Made by a program: the position numbers and the translations under genes | Notes under the pieces: generated by a model | The model's database searches: none | Seen by the model: only the letters and a program-made list of their open reading frames with translations | Told to the model about the DNA's origin: nothing | Origin: an uncultured Rhodobiaceae bacterium | Lineage (GTDB): Bacteria; Pseudomonadota; Alphaproteobacteria; RS24 | Direction: 5' to 3' | DNA length: 33,579 nucleotides | NCBI GenBank assembly: GCA_937876775.1 | Contig: CALEFA010000052.1 | Span: 1 to 33,579, forward strand | Shown here: positions 1,542 to 3,933 of the stretch, piece after piece | Position numbering within the stretch: position 1 is the stretch's first letter | How the letters are laid out: the number at the start of each line of letters is the position of its first letter

Positions 1542-1606
1542 GTCGCGTCAAAGGGTTCGCTATCATACCGATGGTCGCAGGCAGAGAGGTACAGAGAAGT
1601 TTGGTG

Positions 1607-2701
1607 ATGCAGCACAAAATCGTTTTGGGTATTGAGACAAGTTGCGACGAAACAGCCGCCGCGATTATCCGTGCGCCTATCGACGCCGACGGGACGATTT
1701 GTGGCACCGGAGACATCTTATCCAATGTCGTGCTGAGCCAAATCGACATGCATGCCCCCTATGGCGGTGTGGTTCCAGAGTTGGCGGCGCGGGCGCATTT
1801 GAGCCAACTCGATCACTTGGTGGCGCAAGCCTTGGACGAGGCCGACATAGCCTTGGACGGACTAGACGCCATTGCCGCCACCGCCGGCCCCGGCCTAATC
1901 GGCGGCTTGCTCATTGGCCTGACAACGGCCAAAGCCATTGCCTTAGCGGCCAATAAACCTTTTATCGCAATCAATCATTTAGAGGGCCACGCCCTGACCG
2001 TCCGGCTAACCAACGCAACCCGGTTTCCATATTTACTATTATTAGTATCAGGCGGTCATTGCCAATTGATGAGCGTGGAAGGTCTGGGCACCTATCATTG
2101 CCTTGGCACGACGCGCGATGATGCCGTCGGTGAGGCCTTTGACAAAGCCGCGAAACTATTACGTCTCGGCTATCCCGGCGGGCCAGAAATAGAAGCGCGC
2201 GCCCTAAGCGGTGACAGTAAAGCCTATGCCTTACCAAGACCGCTGATCAATGGGCCTCAAGAGGACGACGACTGCGACTTTTCATTCTCCGGCTTGAAAA
2301 CAGCCCTGCGCCAGCAAGCCGAAAAACTACAGCCCTTGAGCGACCAACATATTGACGATTTAGCCGCCAGTTTTCAGGCCGCGGTGATGGATTGTTTGGC
2401 CGAGCGCAGCGCCAAGGCTATGCGTTTATTCAGCGCCCGTCATGCGCCAGACGATACCACGCCTTGGCCATTTGTGATTGCTGGCGGGGTGGCGGCCAAT
2501 CAGGCGCTGCGAACGCGGCTGGCTGATGTTGCCGAACAATATGGCTTTATATTGCAAGTAGCACCGCCGGCTTTATGCACAGACAATGCGGCGATGATTG
2601 CTTGGGCTGGTGCTGAGCGCCTCGTCGCTGACCGGATGACCGAACAGCCGATGGCAGCGCCCGCACAAGCACGCTGGCCGTTGGCCGATTTAACTGACTA
2701 A
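1607..2701 (+). CDS. tsaD: tRNA N6-adenosine threonylcarbamoyltransferase
   Basis: TsaD transfers the threonylcarbamoyl group from TC-AMP to A37 of ANN-decoding tRNAs, working with TsaB and TsaE. The protein starts MQHKIVLGIETSCDET, the normal TsaD N-terminus of the ASKHA fold. I chose this ATG over one at 1571, which would add a 12-residue tail that the family lacks. The metal site HxxxH is seen in NHLEGHALTVR, with later signature segments LLLVSGGHCQL, GLKTALRQ, VIAGGVAANQALR and the C-terminal CTDNAAMIAWAG supplying the final metal-binding Asp. At 364 residues it is slightly longer than usual. Its 3' end faces the terminator hairpin at 2730-2759. In many alphaproteobacteria tsaD is followed by gpsA; here other genes intervene. 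Confidence 0.97.
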   Translation: MQHKIVLGIETSCDETAAAIIRAPIDADGTICGTGDILSNVVLSQIDMHAPYGGVVPELAARAHLSQLDHLVAQALDEADIALDGLDAIAATAGPGLIGGLLIGLTTAKAIALAANKPFIAINHLEGHALTVRLTNATRFPYLLLLVSGGHCQLMSVEGLGTYHCLGTTRDDAVGEAFDKAAKLLRLGYPGGPEIEARALSGDSKAYALPRPLINGPQEDDDCDFSFSGLKTALRQQAEKLQPLSDQHIDDLAASFQAAVMDCLAERSAKAMRLFSARHAPDDTTPWPFVIAGGVAANQALRTRLADVAEQYGFILQVAPPALCTDNAAMIAWAGAERLVADRMTEQPMAAPAQARWPLADLTD

Positions 2702-2720: not shown

Positions 2721-2759
2721 GACAAAAAAAGCACCGATAGGGGAGGGTCTATCGGTGCT
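2721..2759 (-). terminator. Rho-independent terminator of the tandem-hairpin RNA (probably bidirectional)
   Basis: A perfect 11-bp stem (2730-2740 with 2749-2759) closes an 8-base loop. On the minus strand it is followed by seven U residues (2724-2730), giving a classic terminator for the RNA and small ORF upstream. On the plus strand the hairpin is followed by CTCTATTTTT, so it may also end tsaD transcripts. It is at the same time hairpin 4 of the array, with loop ACCCTCCC on the minus strand. Confidence 0.85.
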
Positions 2760-2850
2760 CTATTTTTGGCCGGGAGGGTGGCCATATTGAGTGCATAAGG
2801 GAGGGAGACGCACTCATCTTTTTCTAAAAGCCGGGAGGAGGCTTTTAGAT
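2722..2850 (-). ncRNA. Tandem four-hairpin RNA with C-rich anti-Shine-Dalgarno loops (CcsR/cuckoo-like)
   Basis: Reading the minus strand there are four consecutive hairpins: (1) 9-bp stem 2840-2848/2824-2832, loop TCCTCCC, so that CCTCCTCCC is exposed; (2) 7-bp stem 2810-2816/2788-2794 with a 15-base loop holding TCCCTCCC; (3) 5-bp stem 2780-2784/2767-2771, loop ACCCTCCC; (4) 11-bp stem 2749-2759/2730-2740, loop ACCCTCCC, followed by U7. The stems are unrelated in sequence while the loops are alike, so selection is on the loop. Alphaproteobacterial CcsR ('cuckoo') RNAs show the same plan: tandem hairpins with a CCUCCUCCC motif behind a small-protein gene, processed from its mRNA. Here the array abuts the 40-residue ORF, whose stop codon lies in stem 1. 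The likely role is pairing to Shine-Dalgarno regions or titrating a binding protein; this is inference. Confidence 0.75.
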
Positions 2851-2967
2851 AATTGTAATCCCAGCGACCCCTTGGGTGACCAAGGCCACGCCATAGAGCG
2901 CCAGAAGACCTTTAACAACAGTAACGCCGGTGAAGGCTTTCCGTGATGGTTTCAATAAATTGCTCAT
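2845..2967 (-). CDS. 40-residue hydrophobic small protein preceding the hairpin RNA
   Basis: The minus-strand ATG at 2965-2967 opens a 40-codon frame ending in TAA at 2845-2847. The protein has a basic start (MSNLLKPSRKAF) followed by about 25 mostly hydrophobic residues (from VTVVKGLLALYGVALV onward), which could form one membrane helix. It does not look like DUF1127, the family usually found in front of CcsR RNAs. The stop codon is built into the first stem of the hairpin array, so the ORF and RNA share a transcript. A promoter-like sequence lies 50-80 bases upstream (3019-3047). No strong Shine-Dalgarno is seen (GTGAG about 7 bases before ATG). It is too short to be sure it is translated. 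Confidence 0.6.
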   Translation of the reverse strand: MSNLLKPSRKAFTGVTVVKGLLALYGVALVTQGVAGITII

Positions 2968-3018: not shown

Positions 3019-3047
3019 TATATAGGGCATGCCGCCACAAAAAACAA
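3019..3047 (-). promoter_or_regulatory. Promoter for the small ORF and hairpin RNA
   Basis: On the minus strand TTGTTT (3042-3047) and TATATA (3019-3024) are 17 bases apart, within the run CCCTATATAATAAT. The same bases also read as ATTG-N18-CCTATAT, close to the pattern reported for alphaproteobacterial RpoH promoters, which would suit a stress-induced RNA. The choice between housekeeping and heat-shock sigma factor cannot be settled here. Confidence 0.5.
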
Positions 3048-3071
3048 TGAATATTTGGCAAATTATTCATT
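3046..3071. repeat. Inverted repeat overlapping the -35 region (operator candidate)
   Basis: AATGAATA (3046-3053) and TATTCATT (3064-3071) form a perfect 8-base inverted repeat around a 10-base spacer that itself contains TTTG-G-CAAA. It touches the -35 hexamer of the minus-strand promoter at 3019-3047. This is where a repressor or activator would bind, and a TetR-family gene lies just upstream. The regulator is unknown. Confidence 0.4.
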
Positions 3072-3216: not shown

Positions 3217-3876
3217 TTACAGCTCTCGCGGCATTTTTTGGCCAACAATATCGCCGGGAATTGTCGTTGGTGCCACTAACTTACCGTCATTGCGAATAAT
3301 CAGACCACGCATCACCAAGGTCAGCACACCGGACAGTTCTTGCTCTAATTCTGCCAAGGTTTGATTGGTGAATAATTGTGCATAGCGATATTTTAACGTC
3401 GCCGCCTGAATGGCAATTGTCGTTTGCGCCAGATTATCAATGGTAAACTCACCCGAGGCTTGGCCTTCGCGCAAAATACGTTGAAAAGCGCGGCGTTCGC
3501 GACGGAAACTTTCGACCTGAAATTGTGGCCGTTCGCGAATAACAATTTGCGCCAACTCCAACACTTTTGCGCTGTTTTCCAGCAAATGGAAGGTATAGCG
3601 CAGATCCGCAAAAACAATCTCTTCAAGGCGTTGGCGCGAGCTCCGGTGCGGACATTCCAGCACCGATTCAATCGTCTCAATAGCGCTCAGAGCTTGGCGA
3701 CGCGCTATTTCTGCGGCAATGTCAATTTTACCTTTGAAAAAACGGTATATATTACCTGGCGACATGCCACAATCACACGCCACTTCGGCAATCGTCGTCT
3801 TCGGATAACCGTAGTGACGAAACCGCTGCTCCGCGGCTTCAATGATCTGTTCGCGTGTTACATCTGTTTCGCTCAT
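3217..3876 (-). CDS. TetR/AcrR-family transcriptional regulator
   Basis: The 219-residue protein begins with a TetR-type DNA-binding domain: TREQIIEAAEQRFRHYG (helix 1), TTIAEVACDCGMSPGNIY (helix-turn-helix, about residues 27-46), then FFKGKIDIAAEIARR at the start of helix 4. The C-terminal ligand and dimer domain (residues about 60-200) is helical and gives no clue to the inducer. It is transcribed divergently from gpsA and lies upstream, on the same strand, of the small ORF and hairpin RNA, 249 bases away. TetR proteins often control adjacent genes, so either gpsA, itself or the small ORF is a candidate target. The start chosen gives a normal TetR N-terminus with no extra tail. Confidence 0.9.
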   Translation of the reverse strand: MSETDVTREQIIEAAEQRFRHYGYPKTTIAEVACDCGMSPGNIYRFFKGKIDIAAEIARRQALSAIETIESVLECPHRSSRQRLEEIVFADLRYTFHLLENSAKVLELAQIVIRERPQFQVESFRRERRAFQRILREGQASGEFTIDNLAQTTIAIQAATLKYRYAQLFTNQTLAELEQELSGVLTLVMRGLIIRNDGKLVAPTTIPGDIVGQKMPREL

Positions 3877-3933
3877 CGGCGCAATCTAGCATGAAACACT
3901 GAACAATCAATAAAATATTCACACACCCACCTG

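Follow-up and report, generated by a model that had tools for sequence, protein, structure and literature searches.

A hydrophobic peptide gene followed by an array of anti-Shine-Dalgarno hairpins, beside a TetR-family gene in the PS1 clade

Four hairpins with C-rich anti-Shine-Dalgarno (aSD) loops, the last of which is a terminator, lie on the minus strand at positions 2722-2849 of a 33,579-nucleotide stretch of DNA (termed ‘the window’ throughout) from an uncultured Rhodobiaceae bacterium, and mark a candidate regulatory RNA of the PS1 clade, with proteorhodopsin and the uptake functions of TRAP and TonB type as plausible targets. This clade consists of little-studied aquatic alphaproteobacteria, for which a limited literature search returned no described small RNA; the genome that hosts the window measures 1.7 Mb, and its named relatives in the order (Rhodobiaceae MAGs, PS1 clade bacteria and IMCC14465) are represented by mostly MAG-based genomes. 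In minus-strand order the locus comprises a TetR-family gene (3217-3876), a palindrome (3045-3070) overlapped by the -35 element of a promoter-like sequence, a 40-codon gene (2967-2845), the four hairpins and a U7 tract.

The gene for TsaD (1571-2701, plus strand; Pfam TsaD, 307 bits) is a convergent neighbour that falls outside this unit. Read on the plus strand (2722-2765), the terminator might provide tsaD with a 3' hairpin, whose loop (GGGAGGGU) is perfectly complementary to loops 3 and 4 of the array.

The hairpin array and its conservation

The stem of hairpin 1 (2823-2849, minus strand; TCTAAAAGCC-TCCTCCC-GGCTTTTAGA) contains the peptide's stop codon TAA (2845-2847), and is followed on the same strand by hairpin 2 (2786-2818; loop CTCCCTCCCTT), hairpin 3 (2767-2784; TGGCC-ACCCTCCC-GGCCA), the terminator stem of hairpin 4 (2729-2760; GAGCACCGATAG-ACCCTCCC-CTATCGGTGCTT) and the U7 tract of an intrinsic terminator (2724-2730, as read from the sequence). 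Written as RNA, loops 1 to 4 are UCCUCCC, CUCCCUCCCUU, ACCCUCCC and ACCCUCCC. The first-pass annotation, made from the letters of the window, had reported the four hairpins, the 40-residue reading frame, the stop codon within stem 1, the U7 tract and a promoter-like sequence upstream, and each was found at the place on the minus strand where it had been put. Its account of the first loop was right in calling it a C-rich aSD loop, but overstated the exposure of CCUCCUCCC, of which the first CC is paired, so that only UCCUCCC is left exposed. CCUCCUCCC occurs only at hairpin 1; the full sequence is missing from three of the four loops, and the other loops carry CUCCCUCCC or ACCCUCCC.

The predicted fold of 143 nt reaches -54.4 kcal/mol, as compared to -21.96 +/- 3.26 kcal/mol for 200 shuffled sequences (z = -9.95), none of which folded as well; when the C-rich motifs were held fixed during shuffling, 0 of 300 shuffles attained the observed hairpin score, both for this array and for each of 23 others. 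No second cluster emerged when hairpins with loops of the CCTCC type were sought throughout the window, and a tRNA was the sole Rfam match in the window at gathering level.

Wherever the region was read in the order, two to four hairpins with C-rich (CCUCC) loops follow the peptide's stop codon. The conservation in relatives that had been proposed as a check was found: the loops are kept, while the stems are either replaced or altered in compensation. At hairpin 2 the stems differ entirely between groups of relatives (5' arms GAGTGCGT, GGATATCT, AGGTGCG, GTAACCATAA and GAATAAAGACTTT) and are still self-complementary, with the C-rich loop retained; this hairpin was left out of the covariation counts because automatic alignment misplaced its diverged stems. 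For hairpin 4, an alignment of 14 rows (distinct variants chosen by hand) displayed pairing in 95.2% of cells, with double-sided changes in 25 cells as opposed to 8.2 after shuffling (0 of 500 shuffles) and a covariation of 0.438 versus 0.204 for shuffled alignments; sliding the partners by one to three columns lowered pairing to 34-58%.

The number of units and their details vary. Hairpin 3 with a C-rich loop was found in groups g1 and g5 and in part of g6, the genomes of g4 carry the motif on two hairpins only, and in some relatives unit 1 lacks a stem or unit 3 lacks a C-rich loop. Overlap between the stop codon and stem 1 is seen in the window's genus, in g5 and in part of g6, and is absent from g4 and from many g6 genomes; the earlier suggestion that reading of the peptide could remodel the first hairpin is thus confined, as a possibility, to those relatives that possess the overlap.

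The leading peptide and the neighbouring regulator

The peptide gene (2845-2967, minus strand; MSNLLKPSRKAFTGVTVVKGLLALYGVALVTQGVAGITII) encodes a hydrophobic product of 40 residues, a profile of which matches relatives with E values of 1e-18 to 1e-21 and is represented in 23 of the 28 genomes of the order. Of the 15 genomes with a completeness of 90% or more and contamination of 5% or less, 14 contain a match; in the single exception (G024) the promoter palindrome lies at the end of a contig, and the peptide gene is therefore probably located beyond it. Values of pN/pS in close pairs (0.05-0.21) indicate that the frame is translated into a protein under purifying selection; in the alignment LALYG, one T and one G are invariant. 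A structure model of moderate confidence (pLDDT 71, pTM 0.34) contains one helix spanning residues 6-39, and the peptide is predicted to form one membrane helix.

Comparison of the peptide with Pfam and NCBIfam identified no family match, and DUF1127 (PF06568), which usually leads CcsR/‘cuckoo’ arrays, was found, although detected in an E. coli control, in 0 of the 28 genomes of the order, in agreement with the earlier statement that the leader is not a DUF1127 protein. Beyond the order, nothing convincing emerged from 385 genomes of the class, in which the profile gave two weak matches only; the better of these (L092) was set aside as either chance or a remote relative, the stretch inspected there being free of CCTCC motifs.

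Directly upstream of the peptide and array lies the gene for a TetR-family regulator (3217-3876, minus strand), which the first-pass annotation overlooked together with two operator-like palindromes. Its product matches Pfam TetR_N (39.8 bits; cut-off 24) and TetR_C_27 (27.7 bits), both above cut-off, and the gene adjoins the peptide and array in 20 of 20 relatives examined, at 52-95% identity. One palindrome (ATGAATAATTTGCCAAATATTCATTG; 3045-3070, minus strand) is positioned in the promoter of the peptide and array, and is kept in every relative for which upstream sequence exists; its right arm is overlapped by a -35 element, TTGTTT (3042-3047, minus strand, as read from the sequence), at which ATTGTTTTTT is invariant among aligned relatives. 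TATATA follows 17 nt downstream of TTGTTT, and the -10 element CTATAT (3020-3025, minus strand) is conserved in aligned relatives as CTATaT. When the region upstream of the peptide was aligned for 21 genomes, a single strong block was visible (TGAATaA-n8-TATTYATTGTTTTTT, then CTATAT). The second palindrome (GTGAATATTTTATTGATTGTTCAGTG; 3897-3922, minus strand) lies 21 nt ahead of the start codon of TetR, with three mismatches to the pattern, and a corresponding consensus (TgAATA.TTTaTTGATT.TTCA) stands at the equivalent position before TetR in 21 of 21 genomes aligned.

The palindrome pattern matches the window four times, against 0.44 matches expected. A scan of the order that allowed up to three mismatches recovered the locus and few other matches (a reversed control pattern gave none), and most of those others correspond to the second palindrome before TetR, lying on the same contig some 0.7-0.9 kb further upstream; the palindrome is hence nearly unique to the peptide/array locus on an order-wide scale. 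The simplest reading is that the two palindromes would act as the operator pair of a local, autoregulating repressor. That the sign of the putative TetR control would be repression is suggested by the overlap between the right arm of the first palindrome and the -35 element.

Candidate targets and competing readings of the array

The genome that contains the window harbors 41 occurrences of GGGAGG at 3-10 nt from an ATG, as compared to six for the reversed pattern. Twenty such sites, mostly picked as common to a second genome (G003), were inspected, and include those of a TonB receptor, a rhodopsin and a TRAP DctP protein. Across the order, most proteorhodopsin starts retain GGGAGG or GGGAG, and no fewer than half of DctP starts retain GGGAGG, although such conservation is not specific for targeting, because strong Shine-Dalgarno (SD) sequences are expected at highly expressed genes in any case. 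Predicted duplexes between the loops and the starts of proteorhodopsin, DctP and TonB-receptor genes range from -10.8 to -13.5 kcal/mol, and make these mRNAs plausible candidate targets, the composition of which is not independent evidence since they were chosen by motif. The starts of the peptide and TetR genes themselves give weak duplexes (-2.2 to -3.6 kcal/mol), and autoregulation in cis through pairing to either start was set aside as unlikely on the basis of that energy.

We consider it fairly probable that a TetR repressor controls a single transcript which delivers both a membrane peptide and an aSD-hairpin small RNA that represses mRNAs with GGGAGG-type SD sequences. From the arrangement of the locus, we infer that the TetR-family protein would sit on the operator that overlaps the -35 element of the peptide/array promoter, and on a second operator at its own promoter, leading to autoregulation; its release from the DNA would allow synthesis of one short transcript, yielding a single-span membrane peptide of 40 residues and a 3' array of aSD hairpins that ends in the terminator. 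RNase E may cut the RNA from the peptide mRNA, as is reported for CcsR. The C-rich loops would then pair with the GGGAGG-type SD sequences of other mRNAs and block their translation, in the manner reported for NfeR1, and the equivalence of the loops would provide redundancy. As to the peptide, our guess is that it is either a non-homologous replacement for DUF1127 or has a separate function in the envelope and is induced alongside the RNA. A more elaborate proposal, which we regard as rather improbable, is that the peptide has taken the place of DUF1127 as the functional partner of the aSD RNA under a dedicated TetR protein, giving a dual output (reduced translation of uptake and light-energy functions, plus an action at the membrane) whose two parts are coupled by the stop codon in stem 1; were this true, then in genomes with that overlap the ribosome that terminates the peptide would either open up or mask the first aSD loop.

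Four other readings must be weighed against this one. The hairpins might act in cis only, serving as a 3' untranslated region to shield the peptide mRNA, hold back RNases and end transcription, with loops that have no targets in trans. The placement of the array directly behind the stop codon, the terminator at its end and, in part of the relatives, the overlap of hairpin 1 with the stop codon would all suit such a role; however, plain stabilizers need stems rather than a particular loop sequence, and here it is the loops that are kept and the stems that are replaced. Moreover, RNAs described as acting in trans have these same loops (PMC10746234), as do arrays without a leading reading frame in both relatives and other alphaproteobacteria, and a purely cis-acting array is considered unlikely. 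It is less probable still that the loops serve as a sponge for another RNA or for a protein with affinity for C-rich single strands, for example through ‘kissing’ between the array and a putative mirror-image hairpin (loop GGGAGGGU) at the end of the tsaD mRNA. The repetition of similar loops on unrelated stems fits this view, and the duplexes of the tsaD-side hairpin with loops 2-4 (-15.4 to -16.7 kcal/mol) beat those of every candidate target tested; nevertheless, such pairing is expected even without function, because any convergent terminator gives complementary loops, and there is no candidate protein.

The peptide itself could instead be the active product, either similar to a type I toxin or as a membrane peptide of the stress response, with the array acting to restrain it. 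Its size and hydrophobicity resemble those of small single-span toxins, and one helix is predicted, but pairing of the loops to the start of the peptide gene is poor (-2.7 to -3.6 kcal/mol) and control by a dedicated, neighbouring TetR protein is unusual for type I modules; we judge this very unlikely. Scarcely credible is an element of the plus strand, where four GGGAGG-type runs would form a G-quadruplex, whether in DNA or in the 3' untranslated region of tsaD. No evidence for such a structure, raised as a possibility by the first-pass annotation, was found: each run occupies a hairpin loop of its own, with tens of bases between one and the next, the g4 relatives retain just two of the runs while the hairpin design persists, and the promoter, reading frame and U-tract agree in placing the unit on the minus strand, the direction that the same annotation had preferred.

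Relation to other arrays and to known aSD RNAs

Several g6 relatives possess a second array, consisting of two hairpins with CCUCC loops, without an evident leading reading frame (L005, 1501-1625, plus strand; L008, L015, L018, L022 and L023); in L005 it sits between a 504-residue reading frame and a speB-like frame, and in several genomes it is found about 4-5 kb from a rhodopsin gene. Alphaproteobacteria of family f10 (L179, L180, L181 and L182) likewise carry CCUCCUCCC arrays of two hairpins; a promoter-like sequence of the TTGACAA type accompanies them, and a leading frame is not obvious. A class-wide search with a CCTCCTCCC pair pattern located real arrays in f22 and f10, besides many matches that look like chance. 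That arrays without an evident reading frame exist in g6 and in other alphaproteobacteria suggests that a peptide is not always required for such RNAs to function.

Two further elements were noted. Four g6 relatives (L010, L011, L026 and L027) display a single terminator hairpin, with CUCCUCCC or a similar loop, behind a conserved frame that, judged by its ending, is probably a TonB receptor. In L020, L025, L028 and L031, sequence resembling CGCGTATATTA precedes a conserved element (AGTGCTCTCCTCCCCCCTCATTGGAGACACTT), behind which lies a GC-rich terminator; the element in L020 gave no Rfam match at E <= 0.01.

The best Rfam match of the array in the window is ar14 (RF02344), at 46.0 bits (E 2.8e-7) across three hairpins; the gathering cut-off of 58.8 is reached neither by this array nor by any genome of the order, and CcsR1 (RF02791) does not match the window array at E <= 10. 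These shortfalls are weak evidence against membership, because genuine DUF1127-led arrays from other alphaproteobacteria, which the same array search also recovers, miss the cut-offs too (ar14 at best 56.9 bits; CcsR1 44-52 bits for L094, cut-off 65.3).

The ar14 RNA NfeR1 of Sinorhizobium meliloti is a 123-nt transcript under the control of LsrB and NtrC, with a promoter of the form CTTAGAC-N17-CTATAT and three identical CCUCCUCCC loops, and its aSD loops silence mRNAs in trans in a redundant manner (PMC10746234). The unit described here shares with it several aSD-loop hairpins on strongly diverged stems, the last being the terminator, and the CTATAT -10 element; it differs in that a reading frame leads, the loops are mostly CCUCCC and number four rather than three identical copies of CCUCCUCCC, and the regulator encoded next door belongs to the TetR family. 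In the Rhizobiales, SmelA075 and SmelA099 are trans-encoded small RNAs with three and four aSD-loop hairpins, respectively, on variable stems, presumed to block ribosome binding sites through CCUCCUCCC loops, and the section that describes them mentions no leading small-protein gene (PMC3927594).

The ccaF1-CcsR1-4 locus of Rhodobacter sphaeroides is described as a small-protein gene (encoding a 71-residue, RNA-binding DUF1127 leader) with an RpoHI/RpoHII promoter, behind which hairpins with CCUCC loops, the source of processed RNAs, stand in a row that a terminator closes (PMC10253847). The analogy to CcsR or ‘cuckoo’ (CIN1) RNAs drawn by the first-pass annotation is sound with respect to this design, a terminator-closed row of CCUCC loops directly behind a small-protein gene, but does not extend to strict membership (by the ar14 and CcsR1 scores and by the loops); the leader here is a hydrophobic peptide of 40 residues without DUF1127, and next to it lies a TetR gene accompanied by a pair of palindromes. 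Formal membership fails for ar14 on score and loop identity, and for a CIN1-type locus on DUF1127. The type of RNA is thus already known, whereas the peptide leader and the putative TetR control are new; the locus indicates that the aSD-hairpin design of alphaproteobacterial RNAs is not tied to DUF1127, and the PS1 clade makes it testable whether the leading small protein is a functional partner of such an RNA or a passenger.
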